Of a stretch of DNA of 64,000 nucleotides, positions 15,136-25,716 are shown in pieces (positions within the stretch are counted from its first letter, which is position 1; each line of letters opens with the position of its first letter). The position numbers and the translations under genes were made by a program. The notes beneath the pieces are model-generated. The model had not been told where the DNA came from and searched no databases. It saw only the letters and a program-made list of their open reading frames with translations. Origin of the DNA: Sneathiellales bacterium (GTDB lineage: Bacteria > Pseudomonadota > Alphaproteobacteria > JANQFL01). The stretch spans positions 1-64,000 of the forward strand of contig JANQFL010000055.1 in assembly GCA_028277845.1 (NCBI GenBank), given 5' to 3'.

Positions 15136-15901
15136 GACGGCCGCCAGTGTGATCGAAGAGTCCCCGCGCTGGCAACCAGGTAACGCCGTCCCGGCCGGCC
15201 ATGCGCTCGAACAGCTCCGCCAGGAAATGCCATGTCGCCTCGTCCTGAACCAGGTGATGACTGAGCAACCCTGTGGGTTCGTGCGGGTCGCAGTGACCGT
15301 TGCGCCGGTCCCACAAATGCCCGGTCAGAGCCAGCAATGACGCCTCCAGGCCGAGAAATTCCTTTTTACCGCGCCAGAAAATCGGATCCACATGGGTGTT
15401 GACTTGATGAAGGCCGCCATCGGTCCGGGGCCGCGGGCCAAAGCGCGACAACCCGGCGTATCCGGCGTCGGTCAAATCCGGCAGCCAGCGGTCGGGCAGC
15501 CGGTTCCACGGTGGCACGAAAATCGGCTGCGCGGTGGAGCCGAACAACTCGGCGAGCCGGTGGCGGCCGTCCCGGAAAGTGCGATTCACCAGGGCCGGAT
15601 CGGCCGTATCGGGGAACTCACACTTTTTCGCCTCCGGCGGCGCGTTGTTCACGTGGGCATGGCCATGGGTCAGCACCGCAAGCTCCGGGCAGCCGTTGAC
15701 CGCCGGCAACAATGCCCGGTCCACATGGGCGGGGATCACGGCCAGGGACAGCGGCACGGCATGCCGGGCGGACAAGTCCAGCATGCGGTCCAGCGCGGCG
15801 CTCGGCGCGACGGCGTCGTCGTCCCGCCACCATAGGGTGACGGTCCGTCCGGACTCCGTCCAGCGGGTCAGTTCTTCATCCAATACCGCCCAACTGGTCA
15901 T
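15128..15901 (-). CDS. Polysaccharide deacetylase-family protein
   Basis: A 257-residue NodB-fold (carbohydrate esterase 4-like) protein. Residues 25-32 read LWWRDDDA, with the tandem aspartates expected at the catalytic and metal site; THGHAHVNNAP near residue 90 supplies metal histidines; FVPPWNRL is the third motif; and LLSHHL provides the late histidine. It probably removes an N- or O-acetyl group from a sugar. No signal peptide is seen, so it acts in the cytoplasm on an intermediate. The ATG at 15901 overlaps the stop of the upstream glycosyltransferase; a longer frame to 16069 lies inside that gene and is not preferred. Confidence 0.8.
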   Translation of the reverse strand: MTSWAVLDEELTRWTESGRTVTLWWRDDDAVAPSAALDRMLDLSARHAVPLSLAVIPAHVDRALLPAVNGCPELAVLTHGHAHVNNAPPEAKKCEFPDTADPALVNRTFRDGRHRLAELFGSTAQPIFVPPWNRLPDRWLPDLTDAGYAGLSRFGPRPRTDGGLHQVNTHVDPIFWRGKKEFLGLEASLLALTGHLWDRRNGHCDPHEPTGLLSHHLVQDEATWHFLAELFERMAGRDGVTWLPARGLFDHTGGRHV

Positions 15902-17049
15902 GTGGGACGCCTTCGACATTCGGACAGGAAACGGGCGGTGAACCGGGCGCCGTTCAGGTCGATCCGGCTCGCATCGGGCGCCGTCGCCCGGTCGGCCGCC
16001 GCCGCGAGCGTGCGGGGGGTCATGGCGTCCGGCGCGACCAGGGTCACCAGTCCGCGGTCGGCAAAACACATGGCCCGCTCCGTCTGCTCGGTTTCCGTGT
16101 CGTCGGCGAACGGCACGACCACGGCCGGCGTCCGGGTCTGTACGATATCCATCATGGTATTGTACCCCGCTTGGCTGATTGAGACCGCCGCGTGGGACAT
16201 CAGCTCCCGGAAGTCGGGCCGAACCCGCTCGACGATGACACCGCTGCCCGCGCGCGCACTGAGCGCGCGGAATTCCTCTTCCGCGATGATATCAGCCACC
16301 AGGATGCGCCACGTCGCCGAAGCCAGGACACTGTGGGCCTTGGCGGCCACGGCGGCCCGCAGCAGGGACAATCCAACCGCGCCGCCGCCGGCGGAGACAA
16401 TGACGCCGGAACGGGCTTCGGGAGGCACGGGCGCCGGGCCGTCCCGTTCGCACACATAGCCGGTGTAGACCGTCTTTTCGGCGAACCGGTCGGCCAACGG
16501 AAACGTCCGGTCCAGGGTCACGATGCTACCGTCGGCATGAACCAGCACGTGATCGAAACGGGCGGCGATCAGATCGGCGGTTTCCTGCAGGCGCTGCGGC
16601 TTGTTCTTCGCGACAAGAATATCGCGCACGGAACAGGCCACGACCGGCCGCTTCGATCGGGCCGCGATCGCGTCCAACAGCGGCAACAACTCGAAACGCA
16701 TGAGCCGCCGTCCGAACGGAAACTGCTCGATCACCATCACGTCGGGTGCAAATTCGGCGACGGTTTGCAGAAGCTGCTCCGCCCGCGACGCTTTGAACGG
16801 ATCGTCCACCGTATGGCCGCCGGCATCGACAAGGCGTTGAAACCGGCTGTCCTCGGCCCGGACCGGCGGTAGCTGGTGCAGCCGTGCCCCGCCGACATCC
16901 AGGCCGCGCACCGGCAGGCCGCCGGACACCAGCAGTACGTCATGGCCCGTGGCGGCGGTTTCCCGGGCCAGTGCCGCGGTCCGGCGCAGATGGCCGGTGC
17001 CCAGCAGGTGCTGCACATAGAACAGGATTTTCCGCGGTTGGCCGGTCAT
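15898..17049 (-). CDS. Predicted glycosyltransferase (COG4671/MurG-like), first paralogue
   Basis: A 383-residue GT-B-fold protein. The N-terminal loop reads QHLLGTGHLRRTAALARE (about residues 12-29), the GxGH glycine loop of MurG-like enzymes. A C-terminal nucleotide-sugar half includes VSAGGGAVG and ISQAGYNTMMDIVQTRTPAVVVPFADD, with the acidic end that contacts the donor. Donor and acceptor are unknown. Its start and stop both overlap neighbours by 4 bp (histidine phosphatase upstream, deacetylase downstream). It resembles the protein at 20057-21283 in the same operon, suggesting duplicated steps. Confidence 0.82.
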   Translation of the reverse strand: MTGQPRKILFYVQHLLGTGHLRRTAALARETAATGHDVLLVSGGLPVRGLDVGGARLHQLPPVRAEDSRFQRLVDAGGHTVDDPFKASRAEQLLQTVAEFAPDVMVIEQFPFGRRLMRFELLPLLDAIAARSKRPVVACSVRDILVAKNKPQRLQETADLIAARFDHVLVHADGSIVTLDRTFPLADRFAEKTVYTGYVCERDGPAPVPPEARSGVIVSAGGGAVGLSLLRAAVAAKAHSVLASATWRILVADIIAEEEFRALSARAGSGVIVERVRPDFRELMSHAAVSISQAGYNTMMDIVQTRTPAVVVPFADDTETEQTERAMCFADRGLVTLVAPDAMTPRTLAAAADRATAPDASRIDLNGARFTARFLSECRRRPT

Positions 17050-17651
17050 GGGTCTTCGATGTCCTGGTCCAGGCCATGGTTGATGGCGTGCGGCGCCGGC
17101 TGGCCGTCGCCGGACAAGGCAAACACGTGCACCCTGTCCCACGCCAGCTTGATCGGTGCCTTGCCGCGCATGTCCCAATCGTAGGCCAGGGCCATGACCG
17201 CGCGGATAACACCTTTGTGGGTGACGGCCGCGGTCAGACCGCCGTCCTTGGCGCGGTCTGTCAGCCAAGGCCGCATTCGGACTTGCACGTCGCGCGGGCT
17301 TTCGCCGCCGTCCGGCCGGAAGTCGAGCCCACGGTCTTCCAGTTCCCGCATGCGCGGGCCCAAGTCCGCGCGCAGGTCGGCAATGGTCCGGCCTTCCCAA
17401 TCACCCCAATCCATTTCCGTCAGTGCCGCGTCGGGTGCCGCTTCCGTGACGCCCAGCAATGCCGCCGTTTCCCGCGCCCGGCCCAACGGGCTGGTAAACC
17501 AGTGGGCGGCGCGCAGTTGCGGCCCGAGCCGCCAGGCGCGGACGGTATCCCGGCCTGAATCGTTGAGCGGGATGTCGGCGCGGCCTTGCATGCGTCCGAG
17601 CCGGTTCCATTCGGTCGGGCCGTGGCGGAGCAGGGCGAGCAGTGCGGTCAT
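17046..17651 (-). CDS. Histidine phosphatase family protein (phosphoglycerate mutase-like)
   Basis: A 201-residue branch-1 histidine phosphatase: RHG at residues 9-11 with H10 the phospho-acceptor, QGRADIPLNDSG, FTSPLGRARETA with the phosphate-binding arginine, EMDWGDWEG, and the later catalytic histidine in THKGVIRA. Comparable enzymes dephosphorylate sugar phosphates or nucleotides, such as CobC or the heptose phosphatase-like proteins. Within a run of glycosyltransferases, a sugar-phosphate substrate is plausible but not shown. It overlaps both neighbouring glycosyltransferase genes by 4 bp. Confidence 0.88.
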   Translation of the reverse strand: MTALLALLRHGPTEWNRLGRMQGRADIPLNDSGRDTVRAWRLGPQLRAAHWFTSPLGRARETAALLGVTEAAPDAALTEMDWGDWEGRTIADLRADLGPRMRELEDRGLDFRPDGGESPRDVQVRMRPWLTDRAKDGGLTAAVTHKGVIRAVMALAYDWDMRGKAPIKLAWDRVHVFALSGDGQPAPHAINHGLDQDIEDP

Positions 17652-18790
17652 GCCGGCACCACCGCCGACAGGATTTGATCGAGTGTCCTACCGGCGCGAT
17701 GGACGGAACGGGTTTCGGCGGCAAACCGTGCGCCACGCCGCGACAGGTCCGCGCGCAAGGACCGGTCGTCGAGCAACGCCGCGATTTTGTCGGCGAAGTC
17801 GTCCGGATCGCCGGCCCGGGCCAGCAGGCCGCCCGCGCCGTCGACCACCACGTCGGGCACGCCGCGCGTATTTCCGGCGACGACCGGCAAGCCTGTCGCC
17901 TGCGCCTCCAGATACGCCATGCCATAGGCTTCGCCGATGCCGGGCCAGACAAAAAGATCGCTGGCCGCATAGTAGGCCGGTAGTGCGTCCACATCGCATT
18001 GTCCGGCGAATACCGTCTTGTCCGCCACGGGCTGGAACATGGCTTCCACGGCCGGCCGTGCCGGCCCGTCACCGACGACGATGAGCCGCCAATTCCGATC
18101 GGCGATCCGTTGCAGTGCCTGTGCCAGACAGGCATAGGAGTCACACTTGTCGCCCGGCCGCATCATCGCGACGGTCAGCAGCCAGGGCGGTTTTTCCGCA
18201 ACGGACAGAGCTTCGGCTAGGCGTTTCCGGTGCGTGGACCGCAATGGCCGGGCGGCGGCGTAGGGTGTGCCGTCGATGAACGGCGGCAGATAAAACAGCC
18301 GGTCGCGGTTCGCGGCCAACGGCGCGACGCATTCCATGTCATGCCGGGTCACGCCGATGACGGCATCGGCCCGGCGGATGGTGCGTTCGACGGCCTGGTG
18401 GTTGTGATGCCACGGCCCGCCCGCCCGTTTCGGCGCGTGGGATGCCTCGGCGACGATGTATGGGATGCCGGCGGCGTCGCACACCTGCGGACCGATCCAG
18501 TCCGGCGCCTTGTAGTGCAGGTGATAGGTCAGCCAGGCATCGGGCCGCATATTCGGCGTCCGCTTATCAAAATCGGCGACGATGTGTTCCGCGGTTGCCC
18601 GTCCTTGATGCTCGAATTCCACTTGCCGCGCGTGATCGCCGTCCCCATCGAACGTCCGCAGTTCGGACATCAGTTCGGTGGTGTGCCCGGCGCTTCGCAA
18701 CGCTGCCATCAACAGCCGGGCCATGCGCCGGTCGCCTGACGGCACGGGGTGGTCGGGCGATTTCATCGGCGCATAGAAGGCAATGCGCAC
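17648..18790 (-). CDS. Glycosyltransferase family 4 protein
   Basis: A 380-residue GT4-type enzyme that transfers a sugar from an activated donor. N-terminal segment MRIAFYAPMKSPDHPVPSGDRRMARLL; donor-binding C-terminal half with VVGDGPARPAVEAM, DLFVWPGIGEAYGMAYLEAQATGLPVVAG (the EX7E motif region) and a following GLLARAGDPDDFA stretch. Cytoplasmic face of the membrane is expected. It starts 3 bp after the next glycosyltransferase ends and overlaps the histidine phosphatase gene by 4 bp. Confidence 0.9.
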   Translation of the reverse strand: MRIAFYAPMKSPDHPVPSGDRRMARLLMAALRSAGHTTELMSELRTFDGDGDHARQVEFEHQGRATAEHIVADFDKRTPNMRPDAWLTYHLHYKAPDWIGPQVCDAAGIPYIVAEASHAPKRAGGPWHHNHQAVERTIRRADAVIGVTRHDMECVAPLAANRDRLFYLPPFIDGTPYAAARPLRSTHRKRLAEALSVAEKPPWLLTVAMMRPGDKCDSYACLAQALQRIADRNWRLIVVGDGPARPAVEAMFQPVADKTVFAGQCDVDALPAYYAASDLFVWPGIGEAYGMAYLEAQATGLPVVAGNTRGVPDVVVDGAGGLLARAGDPDDFADKIAALLDDRSLRADLSRRGARFAAETRSVHRAGRTLDQILSAVVPA

Positions 18791-18793
18791 TTG

Positions 18794-20035
18794 TTACTCC
18801 GCGGCATCGGGGACGGCACGTGACCCGGATAATCCGAAGCGCCGGGCCAGCCGGTCGATCAGCGGCTCCATGTCGAATTCGGCGTGCAGCCGATCGAATC
18901 CGGCCCGGCCCAGTGTCCGCCGCAGCGCTGCATCGGCAAGCAGGCGTGCCAAAGCATCCGACAAGGCGTCGGCGTCGTCGGACGGCACCAGGAGACCCGT
19001 CCGGTCGTGCTCGATCAGTTCGGGTATGCCGGAGATGTCCGTGGCCACGCAGGGCAGGGCCTGGCTTTGGGCTTCCATCAGCACATTGGGCAAACCATCC
19101 CTGTCACCGTCACCGGTGATCTTGCTGGCCAGCACGAACACGTCCGCATCCCGCATGGCCTGCAGGACGATGGCCTGGGCCTGGGCGCCGCGCCACTCGA
19201 TCCTGTCGGCGAGGCCCAAGGCCTGCGCCAACTCAGCCAGGTTCCCACGTTCGCCGCCGCCGCCGATGTGGACGAACCGCCATGCCAGGCCAGGGTCGAG
19301 TTGCGCCAGGGCGTGCAGCAGAACGTCGTAACCTTTTTTCGGCACCGCCCGCCCGACGGACAGGACGGTGACCGGCCGGCCCTCCGTTGGCGGCCGGTCC
19401 CTTTCGGGTGGCGGAAATCGGCGGAAGTCGATGCCGTGATAATTCAGTTCGACATCGGCCGCGTCCGACAAAGACTTCAGATACTCCGCGCCCGACCGGG
19501 TACATGTCGTGAGCCAGGACATGCAGGCCAGCTTTTCCCGGATCTCCCATTCCGGGATCGTCCAGATGTCCTTGGCATGGGCCGAGCAACTCCAGCGCCG
19601 GCCGGTCAGCAACGCGGCGTATCGGGTCACGGACGCCGGTGTGTGCAGGAAATGGGCGTGCAGGGCCGCGATATCGTCCGGCAGTTCGGCGGCCAGGACC
19701 AGCGCCTGGCCGAAACGGCGGATGCGGTTGCGGGTCCGGTCGCGCAACAGATCCCGCCACCAGACCGATACAGTCTTGCCAAAACCCTTGCGGCCGACGG
19801 CCTTGACCAGGCCGCGCAGGACGCGGACCGGTTCCCGGTGCAGGTACTCCGGCAGGTAGGTGACCGGCGCCCGGATTTCGTCGTGCACCGGATGGCGCTG
19901 CCGGTCGATCGGGTGTCTGAGGGAAACGATGCGGATCGGCAGGCCGCGGGCTTCGAGCGCACGGATCTCCTGGGCGATGAACGTCTCGGACAGCCGGGGA
20001 TAGCCTTTGAGTATGAACGCGACCGGTTCGGTCAC
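18794..20035 (-). CDS. Glycosyltransferase family 4 protein (WcaL/colanic-acid-like)
   Basis: A 413-residue GT4 enzyme. The N-terminal ILKGYPRLSETFIAQEI is typical of the colanic acid WcaL/ExpE-like subgroup. The donor half has VLSVGRAVPKKGYDVLLHAL, RFVHIGGGGERG and DVFVLASKITGDGDRDGLPNVLMEAQSQALPCVAT with the EX7E-type residues, then LLVPSDDADALSDAL. It probably adds a hexose in synthesis of a surface glycan or lipid-linked oligosaccharide. It is the second gene of the operon, with 21 bp separating it from the upstream gene. Confidence 0.9.
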   Translation of the reverse strand: MTEPVAFILKGYPRLSETFIAQEIRALEARGLPIRIVSLRHPIDRQRHPVHDEIRAPVTYLPEYLHREPVRVLRGLVKAVGRKGFGKTVSVWWRDLLRDRTRNRIRRFGQALVLAAELPDDIAALHAHFLHTPASVTRYAALLTGRRWSCSAHAKDIWTIPEWEIREKLACMSWLTTCTRSGAEYLKSLSDAADVELNYHGIDFRRFPPPERDRPPTEGRPVTVLSVGRAVPKKGYDVLLHALAQLDPGLAWRFVHIGGGGERGNLAELAQALGLADRIEWRGAQAQAIVLQAMRDADVFVLASKITGDGDRDGLPNVLMEAQSQALPCVATDISGIPELIEHDRTGLLVPSDDADALSDALARLLADAALRRTLGRAGFDRLHAEFDMEPLIDRLARRFGLSGSRAVPDAAE

Positions 20036-20056: not shown

Positions 20057-21283
20057 TTAGGCCCGCCGGCGCAGGTCGGCGTTGTCGGTTTCGGCCGCCG
20101 GTTTGCGGATGTAGGGCTCGACCAGCCGGTTGACGTTTTGCAGACCCTCCAAAAGACCGGGCACTACCACGTCCGACGGCCGGGCCTGTTTCGGCAGGTT
20201 GCGCAGGGCCGCGGCCATGACCGCCGGGTCATAGACCTGGTCGTCCACCAGCATGCGAATGAGCCCCAGCTCCTCGGCGCGGGAAGCGCGAATGTATTGC
20301 TCGAGCCTCGGTTTCGTGCGCGGCACGATGATGGCCGGTTTGTCGAAGGACAGCACTTCGCAGAAAATATTGTACCCGCCCATGGCCACCACGCCGACGG
20401 CATTGTCCATAAGACTTTCCATGTGGGCGTCGAAGGTGATGGCGTCGACGCGTTTCAGGGCGTCCGCCCGTTCGATGAACTCGCCTTGCCGGTCGGGATG
20501 CATGAACGGGCCCAACACCATCAGGGCCGGATAAGGCAACAGCTCGTCGGATTCGTAGGCCCGCAGGACCCAGTCGATCAGTTCGGCGCCGTCGCCGCCG
20601 CCGCCCGGCGTGACCAGCAGATAGGGCCGGTTGACCACTTCGGGCAGTTGCTGCGAGGACGGCGCATCGCGCACCGTCCGCGGCAGGTAGCCGGTGTAGA
20701 TGACCTTGCGCAGGACACACTCGGGCAAACCGATGCCGTCCAGCGGCTCGCAAATCTGCGGCAGGCCGTAAATCCAGATGTCGTCGTACATGTCCTCGAG
20801 CGACGGCAGCACGTTCTTGCGCTCCCATTCGGGGGCCAGCAGGCCCGGCTCGTCGAGCACATCGCGCAGGCCCAGCACCAGTCGCGTGCCGCGCTTTTGC
20901 AGCATTTTCAACGTATCCGCCACTTCGCCGCGCAGACCGAGCGGTTCCTTGTCGACTATGAAGACATCGGGATCGAAGATCATTGCGGTGTGCTGAATGA
21001 TCGACGAACGCATTGAAATCGTCTCGTCGATATCCACGTCTAGGCTGTGCGAGGTATATTCACCGTTCCGCAGCTTGATGACACCCGGGATGCGGACGAA
21101 GTCCACATGGGGGGGGAAATCGAAGCTGCCGATGATCGGTGAACCCGACAGGATCAGGATCGACAGGTCGTCGAAGTTCGCCACCAGGGATTGCGCGATG
21201 GTGTGGCATCGCCTCAGATGGCCGAGCCCGAACGTATCGTGACTGTAGATCAGTATCCGGGAACCGCTCTGAACGCCCCGCAT
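20057..21283 (-). CDS. Predicted glycosyltransferase (COG4671/MurG-like), second paralogue
   Basis: First gene of the eleven-gene operon, 408 residues. The N-terminal motif YSHDTFGLGHLRRCHTIA (residues 13-30) carries the glycine loop of MurG-like GT-B enzymes and matches the GTGHLRR motif of the protein at 15898-17049. The donor-side half has LLVTPGGGGDG, VAMGGYNIFCEVLSFDKPAIIVPRTKPRLEQ and a closing helix. This group is usually annotated only as 'predicted glycosyl transferase'. It is divergent from the ABC gene at 21457, with 173 bp for both promoters. Confidence 0.85.
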   Translation of the reverse strand: MRGVQSGSRILIYSHDTFGLGHLRRCHTIAQSLVANFDDLSILILSGSPIIGSFDFPPHVDFVRIPGVIKLRNGEYTSHSLDVDIDETISMRSSIIQHTAMIFDPDVFIVDKEPLGLRGEVADTLKMLQKRGTRLVLGLRDVLDEPGLLAPEWERKNVLPSLEDMYDDIWIYGLPQICEPLDGIGLPECVLRKVIYTGYLPRTVRDAPSSQQLPEVVNRPYLLVTPGGGGDGAELIDWVLRAYESDELLPYPALMVLGPFMHPDRQGEFIERADALKRVDAITFDAHMESLMDNAVGVVAMGGYNIFCEVLSFDKPAIIVPRTKPRLEQYIRASRAEELGLIRMLVDDQVYDPAVMAAALRNLPKQARPSDVVVPGLLEGLQNVNRLVEPYIRKPAAETDNADLRRRA

Positions 21284-21456: not shown

Positions 21457-24108
21457 ATGGACCGAAGTATCTTTCGTTACATCCTGAGGTACAGCGCCAG
21501 GCAGCAGGTTGTGTTGACGCTGATGGCGGCGTTTTCGTTTCCGTTTCTGTACGCCTTTTACGAACTGCCCAAGCTGATCATCAACGAAGCCATCCAGGGC
21601 GACCCCGCAGATTTTCCGGTGGAGTTTTTCGGCCTGGAGTTCGACCAGATCGAGACCACGATGATCCTGTCGGGCGGGTTTCTCGCCCTGGTCGTGGTCA
21701 ACCAGTCGTTCAAGTACGTCATCAACGTCTACAAGGGCATCACCGGCGAACGCATGCTGCGCCGTCTGCGGTTCGAACTGTACGGCCGCGTCTTGCGTTT
21801 TCCGCTACCGACTTTCAAGAAAGTCAGCCAGGGCGAGATCATTCCCATGGTGACCGCCGAGGTGGAACCGCTGGGCGGCTTCATCGGCGACGCTTTCTCC
21901 CTGCCGGCGTTCCAGGGCGGCACCATGATCGTCATCATCAGCTTCCTGATGATCCAGAACTGGATGATGGCCCTGGCCGCCATATCGCTCTATCCCATAC
22001 AGATCTACATCATCCCGCGCCTGCAACGGCGGGTGAACGCGCTGGGCAAGGAACGTGTCCGGCGGGTGCGGAAGCTGTCCGACCGCATCGGCGAAACCGT
22101 GCAGGGCGTCCAGGAAGTGCATGCCAACGATACGTCCAATCTGGAGTTGGCCATCTTTTCCCACCAGCTCGGCGACATTTTCCGGGTGCGGTATCAGATC
22201 TACCGCAAGAAATTCGTTATCAAGTTTCTCAACAACTTCATTCAGCAGCTCGGTCCGTTCTTCTTCTATTCCATCGGCGGCTATTTCGTCATCGCCGGGC
22301 AATTGGAGATCGGCACGCTGGTCGCCGCCATCGCCGCGCACAAGGATCTGGCCGGGCCGTGGAAGGAACTGTTGAACTACTACCAGATGAAGGAAGACGC
22401 CCGCATCAAGTACGACCAGGTGGTGTCCCAATTCGATCCGGCCCACATGCGGGAACCCGAATACCAGCACACCGAACCGGAAGGCCCGGTCAAACTGTCG
22501 GGCGACGTCGCCGTCGCCAACCTGATTCTGGCCGACGAGCAGGAAACCAACATCATAGACAGTGTGTCGTTCTCGACCGGGCTCGATCAACGCGTCGCGG
22601 TGGTCGGCGACAGCGGTAGCGGCAAGGAACACATGGCGTTGCTGCTGGCCCGCCTGCTCGATCCCGACAAGGGCCGCATCACCGTCGGCGGCGTCGACTG
22701 GGCGGTGGCGCCCGAATCCGTCACCGGGCGGCGCATTTCGTTCGTCGGGCAGAACCCGTTCATCTTCAACGCGACCCTGGGCGACAATCTGTTTTATGGC
22801 CTGAAACACCGGCCGCTGCAGCCGGCCGACTACTCCGGCAAGGCCGCCGACGAGATGGACTTCTTCGTCAACGAAGCCAAACGCTCCGCCAACAGCACCG
22901 ACGATCCGAACGCCAACTGGATCGACTACGCCGCCGCCGGGTCATCGGGTGACGACGATCTGAAGCAGGAGGCCATGCGCGTGGTCGAAATGGTGGCGTT
23001 GGAAAATGACATCTATTCGCTCGGCCTGCGCGGAACCATCGATCCCGACAAGAACCCCGATCTGGCAACGGCGATCCTGAGCGCCCGGGAGGCACTGCGT
23101 GACCGGTTGAAGGATCCGGAATTCGCGCCGCTGGTGGAGGGGTTCGACAAGGATAGCTACAACACCAATGCGTCGGTGGCGGAAAACCTGCTGTTCGGCA
23201 ATCCGGTCGGCGATGCGTTCAATCCCGACCGCCTGGCCGAAAACGAGTACGTTCTCAGCATTCTCGATAAGGTCGGACTGACCGACACGGTGCTGTCGGT
23301 CGGTTATCAGGTCGCCGCCACCATGGTCGAGCTGTTTGCCGATCTGCCGCCCGATCACGAATTCTTCGAACAGTTCGCCTTTATCTCATCCGAAGACCTG
23401 CCGGAGTTCCAGGCCCTCTTGTCGCGGGCCTCGAAAGACAATCTTGGAGAACTCAAGGACGAAGACCGCACCAGCCTGATGTCGTTGCCGTTCAAGCTTA
23501 TCCCGGCCCGGCACCGTCTCGGTCTGATCGACGACGATATGCGCGCCAAGCTGCTGGAAGCCCGGGCGGCGTTTGCGGCGGGGCTGCCCGACGATCTCCA
23601 AGGCAAGATCGCCTTCTTCGACGCCGAGGCCTACAACCCGGCGGCCAACCTGCAGGACAATATCCTGTTCGGCAAGGTGGCCTACGGCCAGGCCCACGCC
23701 GCCGACCGGGTCGGGGAGCTGATCTCCGAGGTCATCGACAGCCTCAATCTACGCCGGGTGGTGGCCGAGGTTGGCCTGGCGTACGACGCCGGCATCGCCG
23801 GATCGCGCCTGTCGGCGGCGCAGCGCCAGAAACTGGGCATCGCCCGTGCCGTGATCAAGCATCCCGATCTGCTCGTCGTATCCGAAGCGACGGCGGCACT
23901 GGATGCCGTCTCGCAAGCCAGGATCATGGAAACCATCATTGACGAATATGAAGGCCGCGGCCTGATCTGGGTCTTGCATCGCGCCGATATGGCCCGCTAC
24001 TTCGACCGGGTCCTGGTCATGCGTACGGGCCGTGTGGTCGAAAGCGGCACGCCCGAGGAACTGGACCGTGACGGTACCGCGTTCCGCGAACTGGTCGCCG
24101 CCGAATAA
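21457..24108 (+). CDS. ABC half-transporter with degenerate, expanded ATPase domain (883 aa)
   Basis: Exporter-type ABC protein, far longer than the usual ~580-620. The membrane domain occupies about residues 10-300 with several hydrophobic stretches. The ATPase domain starts near 345. Walker A reads GDSGSGKE at 384-391, so the Ser/Thr after K390 is Glu. The Q-loop is FVGQNPFIFN (Q432). The signature is LSAAQ at 785-789 instead of LSGGQ. Walker B reads LLVVSE at 805-810, with Ser replacing the Mg-binding Asp but E810 kept; D-loop TAALD and H841 are present. Between Q-loop and signature lie ~340 residues in place of ~80, and the Q-loop neighbourhood recurs twice: NATLGDNLFYG (439-449), NASVAENLLFG (571-581), AANLQDNILFG (729-739). 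It probably exports or flips a glycoconjugate, but its ATP hydrolysis must be unusual. Confidence 0.9.
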   Translation: MDRSIFRYILRYSARQQVVLTLMAAFSFPFLYAFYELPKLIINEAIQGDPADFPVEFFGLEFDQIETTMILSGGFLALVVVNQSFKYVINVYKGITGERMLRRLRFELYGRVLRFPLPTFKKVSQGEIIPMVTAEVEPLGGFIGDAFSLPAFQGGTMIVIISFLMIQNWMMALAAISLYPIQIYIIPRLQRRVNALGKERVRRVRKLSDRIGETVQGVQEVHANDTSNLELAIFSHQLGDIFRVRYQIYRKKFVIKFLNNFIQQLGPFFFYSIGGYFVIAGQLEIGTLVAAIAAHKDLAGPWKELLNYYQMKEDARIKYDQVVSQFDPAHMREPEYQHTEPEGPVKLSGDVAVANLILADEQETNIIDSVSFSTGLDQRVAVVGDSGSGKEHMALLLARLLDPDKGRITVGGVDWAVAPESVTGRRISFVGQNPFIFNATLGDNLFYGLKHRPLQPADYSGKAADEMDFFVNEAKRSANSTDDPNANWIDYAAAGSSGDDDLKQEAMRVVEMVALENDIYSLGLRGTIDPDKNPDLATAILSAREALRDRLKDPEFAPLVEGFDKDSYNTNASVAENLLFGNPVGDAFNPDRLAENEYVLSILDKVGLTDTVLSVGYQVAATMVELFADLPPDHEFFEQFAFISSEDLPEFQALLSRASKDNLGELKDEDRTSLMSLPFKLIPARHRLGLIDDDMRAKLLEARAAFAAGLPDDLQGKIAFFDAEAYNPAANLQDNILFGKVAYGQAHAADRVGELISEVIDSLNLRRVVAEVGLAYDAGIAGSRLSAAQRQKLGIARAVIKHPDLLVVSEATAALDAVSQARIMETIIDEYEGRGLIWVLHRADMARYFDRVLVMRTGRVVESGTPEELDRDGTAFRELVAAE

Positions 24109-24127: not shown

Positions 24128-24610
24128 ATGAGCCGGCTGACCCGGATGATCGAACGCCTGTCGACGCAACAGGCCTGCATCGATCACGTCGCCCGGGCCA
24201 TCGCCGGACAGCCCGGCGTGGTGTTGGAAATCGGCCTCGGCAAGGGCCGCACCGTCGATCACATGCGGGAAGTCATGCCGGACCGGGAGATCTATGCCTT
24301 CGATGGCTTCGTGCATGCACCGCCGGCCGCGGTGCCCGACGACGACCACCTGTTCCTCGGCGATTTTCGCGAGACACTGATTACACCGCCGGATCATCTG
24401 CGCGGGCAAGCCATCTTCGCCCATGCCGATATCGGCAGCGAGGACCGCGACGCCGACGCCGTCTTGGCGCCAATTGTCGGGGAACGATTGGTCAGTTGGC
24501 TGCGGCCCGGTGCCTTCGTTGCCAGTGACCGGGACCTGAAAGTTCAGGCATGGCAAAGGCTTAGCGTCCTGGACGGACAACCATGGCAGTATTTCATATA
24601 TCGGACGTGA
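24128..24610 (+). CDS. Small class I SAM-dependent methyltransferase, first paralogue
   Basis: A 160-residue, single-domain Rossmann methyltransferase with motif I VVLEIGLGKGRTVDHM (about residues 38-53), an acidic residue after the second strand (YAFDGFV) and FAHADIGS in the motif IV position. It matches the protein at 25231-25716 along its whole length, including the shared C-terminal YFIYRT. I place both in the small 'Methyltransf_17'-like group from memory. The ATG at 24128 follows 20 bp after the ABC gene with a GGGGCGCGGAG ribosome binding site, so it belongs to that operon. Substrate unknown. Confidence 0.8.
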   Translation: MSRLTRMIERLSTQQACIDHVARAIAGQPGVVLEIGLGKGRTVDHMREVMPDREIYAFDGFVHAPPAAVPDDDHLFLGDFRETLITPPDHLRGQAIFAHADIGSEDRDADAVLAPIVGERLVSWLRPGAFVASDRDLKVQAWQRLSVLDGQPWQYFIYRT

Positions 24611-24723: not shown

Positions 24724-25185
24724 GTGAGTTTGAATGAAGAAGTCGAACTGCTCCGTAACATTCCGCTGTTCGCAAAAATTGAGCCGTCCAAACTGAAGCT
24801 ACTGGCCTTTACCAGCGAACGCCTCGTGTTCGATGCCGGCCAGGATCTGTTCCGCCAGGGCGACGAAGGCGATGCCGCCTACATCATCGTCGACGGCACG
24901 GCGGATGTGAAAGTGGAGACCCCGACGGGTCCGCTGACCGTCGCCACCATGGCCAAGAACGATTTCGTCGGCGAGATCGCCATCCTGTGCGACGTGCCCC
25001 GTACGGCGACCGTGACGGCGGCGTCGAAACTGACGACGTTGAAGATTTCCAAGGAACTGTTCTTCCGGCTGATTTCGGAATTCCCCCAGATGGCCATCGA
25101 GTTCATGCGCGAACTGGCCCAGCGTCTGGAACGCACGACAGCCGATCTGCAACGGATCAGCGCGCAACAGACGGCCGAGGGCTGA
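24724..25185 (+). CDS. Stand-alone cyclic-nucleotide-binding protein
   Basis: A 153-residue CRP-type cyclic-nucleotide-binding domain without a helix-turn-helix. The jelly roll spans residues ~10-125, and the phosphate-binding cassette FVGEIAILCDVPRTATV (about 81-97) keeps the Glu and Arg expected to bind the cyclic phosphate and ribose. A C-terminal amphipathic helix (FMRELAQRLERTTADLQRI) could dimerise or bind a partner. The GTG start has a strong AGGAGG site. It probably works as a cAMP- or cGMP-dependent regulatory subunit rather than a transcription factor; the cyclase at 7034 is a possible signal source. Confidence 0.88.
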   Translation: MSLNEEVELLRNIPLFAKIEPSKLKLLAFTSERLVFDAGQDLFRQGDEGDAAYIIVDGTADVKVETPTGPLTVATMAKNDFVGEIAILCDVPRTATVTAASKLTTLKISKELFFRLISEFPQMAIEFMRELAQRLERTTADLQRISAQQTAEG

Positions 25186-25230: not shown

Positions 25231-25716
25231 ATGAGCCGTCTCGACAGCTTCATCCGCCGCATGTCGGCGCAGCGCGACTGCCTCAACTGGTCGGCCGGCG
25301 CCTTGAACGGTGTTGACGGGCCGGTCCTGGAATTGGGGCTGGGCAACGGCCGCACCTATGACCATCTGCGTTCGCTGTTTCCCGATCGCGAGATCTTCGT
25401 CTTCGAGCGCCGGGTCAACGCGCACCCCGATTGCATCCCGGATCAGGCCCACCTCATCCTCGGCGACATTTTCGAAACCCTGACCGGATTCGCCGCGCGT
25501 CTGCCGGCGGGGGCGGCGCTCGCCCACGCCGATATCGGCTCCGGCGACACCGAACTGAACCGGCAGATGGCCGTGCGCCTGCCCGAACTGCTGGCGCCGA
25601 TGATGACGCCGGGCGGCCTGGTGTTCAGTGACCAGCCTCTGTCGCACGACGGCTGGCGGCCGGAGCCCCTGCCCGAAGGCGTGCCCGCCGACCGCTATTT
25701 CATCTACCGCACGTAG
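25231..25716 (+). CDS. Small class I SAM-dependent methyltransferase, second paralogue
   Basis: A 161-residue sister of the protein at 24128. It shares MSRL at the N terminus, motif I VLELGLGNGRTYDHL, PDREIFVFER, LAHADIGSGD and the final YFIYRT. It lies 45 bp after the cyclic-nucleotide-binding gene, so the order is methyltransferase - cNMP protein - methyltransferase. It converges with the exonuclease III gene, with only 6 bp between stops. Substrate unknown; a role in modifying the product of the neighbouring glycan genes is inference. Confidence 0.8.
   Translation: MSRLDSFIRRMSAQRDCLNWSAGALNGVDGPVLELGLGNGRTYDHLRSLFPDREIFVFERRVNAHPDCIPDQAHLILGDIFETLTGFAARLPAGAALAHADIGSGDTELNRQMAVRLPELLAPMMTPGGLVFSDQPLSHDGWRPEPLPEGVPADRYFIYRT

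Follow-up and report, generated by a model that had tools for sequence, protein, structure and literature searches.

An ABC-exporter-like protein family with a decayed and internally duplicated ATPase domain encoded beside glycosyltransferase genes

Introduction

Functional ATP sites are considered necessary in homodimeric ABC exporters, and for heterodimeric exporters the known minimum is one good site per dimer. The locus described here raises the question of whether an exporter transmembrane domain (TMD) can work without ATP hydrolysis. Within the window, by which we mean the whole 64,000-nucleotide stretch of DNA that was analysed, a plus-strand open reading frame at positions 21457..24108 encodes an 883-residue ABC-exporter-like protein with a decayed and expanded nucleotide-binding domain (NBD). 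The original prediction, made from the sequence alone, described a degenerate ATP site and a triplicated Q-loop region in this protein.

Results

Exporter architecture with altered ATPase motifs

The window protein has the layout of an MsbA-like ABC exporter, with a TMD followed by an ABC_tran NBD in one chain. The TMD comprises residues 1–330 (21457..22446, plus strand), of which residues 52–292 match Pfam ABC_membrane (PF00664) at E 1.9e-22. ABC_tran (PF00005) matches in two stretches (E 3.8e-16), as expected of a split ATPase domain, and both families score above the gathering score. The AF2 model (73 sequences) has a pLDDT of 88 and a pTM of 0.83, and is weak in TMD segments 164–176 and 287–296 (pLDDT <50). 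Foldseek matches to the predicted structure are ABC exporters, with E-values down to 2.9e-20, and the nearest solved relatives are ABC exporters both by sequence and by fold. Among the 25 NCBIfam matches listed, no exporter family (MsbA, CydC/D, HepA, HlyB etc.) reached its curated cutoff; the top match, MsbA, scored 213.6 bits where 602 are required. A second copy of the family was looked for in the window's genome and none was found. An anti-phage system was considered and rejected, as the PADLOC matches look like generic ABC and cNMP (cyclic-nucleotide-binding) similarity.

The intact motif set of an ABC ATPase (Walker A GxxGxGK[S/T], LSGGQ, Walker B Asp/Glu, H-loop His) is not present in this protein. 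Walker A reads GDSGSGKE at residues 384–391 (22606..22629, plus strand), the signature is LSAAQ at residues 785–789, and Ser809 replaces the Walker B Asp within DLLVVSEATAALD, with Glu810 and the H-loop His841 present; signature, Walker B and H-loop lie at 23809..23979 on the plus strand. The letters reported in the original prediction are all confirmed in the 883-residue translation.

A widespread family

Of 385 alphaproteobacterial genomes sampled, 131 (about a third, from 87 of 277 genera) contain relatives of the window protein, nearly all of them full length. Others occur in beta- and gammaproteobacterial MAGs, subject to the caveat of MAG contig binning. Plasmid-borne relatives are present in Rhizobium, Sinorhizobium, Azospirillum, Ruegeria and others (261 records in all), and pSymB of Sinorhizobium meliloti 1021 carries a family member. 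Public annotation usually describes members as ordinary ABC transporter ATP-binding or transmembrane-domain proteins. No characterised member of the family, nor any paper on it, was found in the literature searched (mostly outside subscription journals), in keeping with the original view that no characterised transporter of this kind is known.

A local sequencing error or frameshift is ruled out, as the same architecture is seen in >100 other genomes. Homologues that lack the insertion and have canonical motifs would have spoken against the original prediction; none emerged, since expansion and decay are conserved family-wide. The decayed, expanded ATPase domain is hence a real family trait.

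Catalytic residues have decayed across the family

Residues were counted over 89 aligned family members. Five core catalytic residues were considered: the Walker A Lys, the Walker A Ser/Thr, the Walker B Asp, the catalytic Glu and the H-loop His. All five are retained in 1/89 members, with four kept in 3, three in 19, two in 34, one in 17 and none in 15, so that 66/89 members keep two or fewer. Position 391, the Walker A Ser/Thr site, is Ser/Thr in 14/89 members, Glu in 30/89 and Asp in 29/89, and the Lys390 position is Lys in 57/89 and Arg in 21/89. The Walker B Asp site (position 809) is Asp in 12/89, Asn in 52/89 and Ser in 15/89, and Glu810 and His841 are found in 50/89 and 26/89, respectively. 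The decay is dispersed over the family tree, and whole clades lack the Walker A Lys, the catalytic Glu and the H-loop His together (e.g. loci L003, L024, L026, L028, L031 and L042). The one member with all five core residues (L064:10001-12637) has its Q-loop Gln replaced and nests among decayed members.

The degenerate ATP site of the original prediction thus extends, as decay, to the family as a whole; the particular Glu, Ser and LSAAQ letters are not conserved, and the sites drift. Likewise, the retention of the catalytic Glu and H-loop His is true of the window protein and is not a family feature. As controls, eight ordinary exporters encoded in related genomes were examined, and each carries GK[S/T], LSGGQ, DE and H (8/8). 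Because GK[S/T] and GGQ were among the grounds for choosing these exporters, the control is independent for DE and H only.

The window's member keeps three of the five residues (Lys390, Glu810 and His841), so family-level decay is no proof for this one protein. These residues, together with the family counts for Lys and Glu, make weak or unusual hydrolysis possible in some members. Retained family-wide are the Walker A glycines, the D-loop Asp816 (86/89) and the Arg-Gln pair after the signature (87/89 each). This pattern suggests that the ATPase domain has kept its fold, and possibly its ability to bind nucleotide or to make dimer contacts, but not catalysis.

The ATPase domain has grown by internal duplication

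The distance from the Q-loop Gln to the signature is 353 residues in the window protein (family median 353, range 348–393), compared to 55–56 residues in the eight ordinary exporters, a gain of ~300 residues. Hence, the insertion is fixed in the family and not local. The expansion first noted as ~340 residues against a usual ~80 is real, and the contrast is larger than described.

The expanded region lies on the plus strand and begins with repeat R1 (residues 415–530, 22699..23046), which holds the true Q-loop segment and helices and is identified by its match to an ordinary-exporter profile at the Q-loop. Repeat R2 follows (residues 531–616, 23047..23304, with NASVAENLLFG), then a conserved helical segment (residues 617–692, 23305..23532, mean modal frequency 0.63), and finally repeat R3 (residues 693–775, 23533..23781, with AANLQDNILFG), which leads into the signature. 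R2 is supported by hhalign to R3, and R3 by hhalign and the AF2 model. The Q-loop-like segments of the three copies are located at residues 427–448 (ISFVGQNPFIFNATLGDNLFYG), 560–581 (VEGFDKDSYNTNASVAENLLFG) and 718–739 (IAFFDAEAYNPAANLQDNILFG). The AF2 model spaces strand and helix by the same 14 residues in each copy (E427/H441, E560/H574 and E718/H732).

Non-overlapping profile segments were compared using hhalign with controls from the same protein, the E-values referring to single pairwise profile comparisons. R2 and R3 (the latter taken here as residues 690–775) match at E 3.1e-18 over 82 columns, R1 and R2 at E 3.8e-5 over 17 columns, and R1 and R3 at E 2.8e-5 over 32 columns; the top control pair, i.e. 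one that does not consist of two repeat copies, reaches E 0.009. No kinship of segment 617–692 to R1, R2, R3 or other segments was detectable by hhalign. Against the ordinary-exporter profile, R1 matches the Q-loop at E 1.1e-7, and R2 (E 7.7e-4) and R3 (E 4.7e-3) align weakly to the same post-Q-loop register. R2 and R3 are a true duplication, and the kinship of R1 to them is distant, with weaker evidence. The profile comparisons therefore bear out the proposed internal expansion of an ABC ATPase domain by duplication; of the predicted triplication, copies 2 and 3 are strongly related and copy 1 matches over short stretches only.

Insert motif residues N577, G581, N735 and G739 are each conserved in 88–89 of 89 members, which places the insert under constraint while catalysis is not. 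The TMD is the best conserved region of the family (mean modal frequency 0.67). Folded alone, copy 2 and the following helical segment give a pLDDT of 92.8 and no significant match among solved PDB structures, the match to MRP1 NBD1 (44 columns, E 4.7) not being significant. The insert is thus not simply a second ABC helical subdomain, and the candidate of a complete second ABC helical domain was rejected on the same result.

Glycosyltransferase and cNMP-binding genes recur at the locus

Neighbouring genes were counted over 77 aligned homologous loci. Five minus-strand genes lie upstream of the exporter gene in the window. The nearest, divergent from it, encodes a glycosyltransferase of the family 28 C-terminal type (20057..21283, PF04101), with counterparts in 56 loci, in 52 of which it lies no more than 6 kb upstream. 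It is followed by two GT4 glycosyltransferases, one EpsE-like below cutoff (18794..20035; within 6 kb upstream in 54 loci) and one at 17648..18790 (44 loci), a histidine-phosphatase family protein that is CobC-like below cutoff (17046..17651; 41 loci), and a second family-28-type glycosyltransferase (15898..17070, PF04101 E 1.4e-9; 42 loci), whose start is uncertain within a longer open reading frame (500 aa). Both family-28-type enzymes, two GT4 enzymes and the histidine phosphatase are divergent and upstream of the exporter gene in many alphaproteobacterial loci, as is a putative polysaccharide-deacetylase-like protein.

Downstream of the exporter gene, on the plus strand, a cNMP-domain protein is encoded at 24724..25185 (PF00027, E 9.3e-18), and a cNMP-binding gene occurs within 1.5 kb downstream in 64/77 loci. 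Among the neighbouring cNMP proteins, the Glu and Arg of the phosphate-binding cassette hardly vary (E84 in 63/65, R93 in 64/65), making ligand binding by this neighbour plausible. In L007 and L012 the cNMP domain forms a C-terminal extension of the exporter itself, and in L061, L062 and L092 the exporter open reading frames are long enough for a fused cNMP domain, which was found in the locus. As in a HetC-like system, a cNMP domain thus occurs with or on the exporter, being adjacent in most loci and fused in a minority.

In the window, the cNMP gene is flanked by two plus-strand Methyltransf_17 genes, at 24128..24610 (PF12692, E 5.5e-37; start codon picked by inspection) and 25231..25716 (PF12692, E 1.4e-63), homologues of which lie near the exporter gene in 30/77 loci. 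An Opp-like peptide importer (ATPase, substrate-binding protein (SBP) and two permeases) recurs beside the glycan cluster in L111, L112 and many other loci across proteobacteria. In Rhizobium etli, an Opp-type importer, three glycosyltransferases, the exporter gene and the cNMP gene are all co-directional.

Some relatives are predicted to consist of a TMD only

Approximately 13 short open reading frames are predicted to encode only the exporter TMD. These relatives fall into two groups, with L101–L103 forming a separate group. One such gene (L104:2194-3231, minus strand, 345 aa) lies beside the same glycosyltransferase genes, with no NBD or NBD remnant near it on the 9-kb locus; a hidden NBD downstream is ruled out within that span. 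Its source is one fragmented genome of 1.6 Mb, and a search of 58 genomes turned up no close relative sharing the TMD-only state. Two TMD-only relatives carry an N-terminal extension and are encoded at L106:4540-5781 (minus strand), adjoining CopB, multicopper oxidase and PCuAC genes that are clearly copper genes, and at L105:3868-5094 (plus strand), near metal-linked MerR, MauE/glutaredoxin and DsbD_TM genes.

An 850-residue protein (L110:3473-6025, plus strand) combines the family's expanded and decayed ATPase domain with a highly divergent TMD. It aligns to P0001 only from its residue 367 on.

Discussion

The conserved architecture, decayed motifs, duplication, gene neighbourhood, cNMP fusion and TMD-only relatives are best explained by a homodimeric ABC-exporter-like protein with a rebuilt domain, in which hydrolysis would no longer be required family-wide and which would be cNMP-regulated and serve a surface-glycan pathway. 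We give this combined reading an even chance of being correct. We infer from the above the lack of hydrolysis, the homodimeric state, the role of the cNMP protein and the substrate. Across the family, the ATPase domain would have been released from the need to hydrolyse ATP; as it retains its fold, glycine-rich loop and D-loop, it may still bind nucleotide or dimerise. Internal duplication of a strand, Q-loop-tail and helix segment would have created a larger cytosolic platform, with regulation supplied by a cNMP-binding partner, separate or fused. Furthermore, the neighbouring genes suggest that the exporter-like protein and the cluster glycosyltransferases move a surface glycan or glycolipid, or anchor its synthesis.

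With catalytic residues lost and the motor domain dropped in some relatives, ATP may no longer power this family of pump-like proteins. We count towards this the decay of the five residues against 8/8 controls, the constrained insert, the spread of decay over the tree, the TMD-only relatives and the absence of a second copy in the window's genome. A bolder version, which we put forward tentatively and consider somewhat short of probable, is that a widespread proteobacterial exporter branch abandoned ATP hydrolysis, that its motor domain self-duplicated into a cNMP-responsive platform, and that this domain was lost in side lineages, leaving the TMD working alone.

The family could instead comprise exporters that still hydrolyse ATP with altered chemistry, tolerating an acidic residue after the Walker A lysine and Asn or Ser in Walker B. 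The window's member, with its K, E and H, would suit such an enzyme, as would the family-wide frequencies of Lys (57/89) or Arg (21/89), Glu810 (50/89), the D-loop Asp (86/89) and the Arg-Gln pair (87/89 each). Clades missing the Walker A Lys, catalytic Glu and H-loop His all at once are hard to accommodate in this way, as are TMD-only relatives, and we consider altered chemistry unlikely.

The decayed ATPase, the conserved glycosyltransferase neighbours and the large conserved cytosolic insert, whose tested part has no match among solved structures, would also be compatible with a non-transporting membrane scaffold or sensor that gathers glycosyltransferases, these docking on the expanded domain with the cNMP protein serving as the switch. 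However, conservation peaks in the TMD (0.67), which retains the pattern of ABC exporters, and the TMD-only relatives would be left without a docking platform; a pure scaffold is thus rather improbable. It is very improbable that the TMD is powered by an ATPase from another gene, e.g. of the OppDF type often present in the same cluster. Opp-type importer genes do lie near many members, within the same gene run in Rhizobium etli, but each Opp ATPase belongs with an SBP and two permeases of its own, many members have no Opp genes in the flanks examined, and the usual partner of an exporter TMD, fused or separate, is an exporter-type ATPase.

If the preferred reading of a homodimer with dispensable hydrolysis is true, whether an exporter TMD works without ATP hydrolysis becomes directly testable, the more so as Sinorhizobium meliloti 1021 and Rhizobium, which are tractable in the laboratory, carry members. 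The family would also provide a clear case of an enzyme domain that grows by internal duplication while losing catalysis.

Comparison with known systems

The window protein shares TMD fold, NBD fold and domain order with MsbA-like exporters (PF00664 and PF00005), and differs from them in the family-wide decay of catalytic residues and the ~300 extra residues between Q-loop and signature. CFTR, in which the ABC architecture is used as a channel and not as a pump, offers a likeness of another kind. It retains one hydrolytic site and has an R domain unrelated to the insert of the window family, and no duplication of this kind is known in CFTR.

The heterodimeric exporters TM287/288, TmrAB and MsRv1273c/72c resemble the window family in departing from the ATP-site consensus, and TmrAB and TM287/288 are high-ranking matches to the window protein by sequence and fold. 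In such exporters each dimer pairs a degenerate site with a working one (PMC12038006). In contrast, the window exporter is one gene with a single family copy in its genome, so both sites of a homodimer would be poor. No partner subunit with a consensus site was found in the conserved cluster or as a second family copy; an unlinked ordinary exporter may still act as partner.

HetC of Nostoc, an ABC exporter that needs a cNMP domain, provides a precedent for the pairing seen here (PMC10986499). HetC requires its own ATPase residue and has a C39 peptidase (PMC10986499). Its cNMP domain is N-terminal and binds ppGpp (PMC10986499), whereas that of the window family is separate or fused at the C-terminus.
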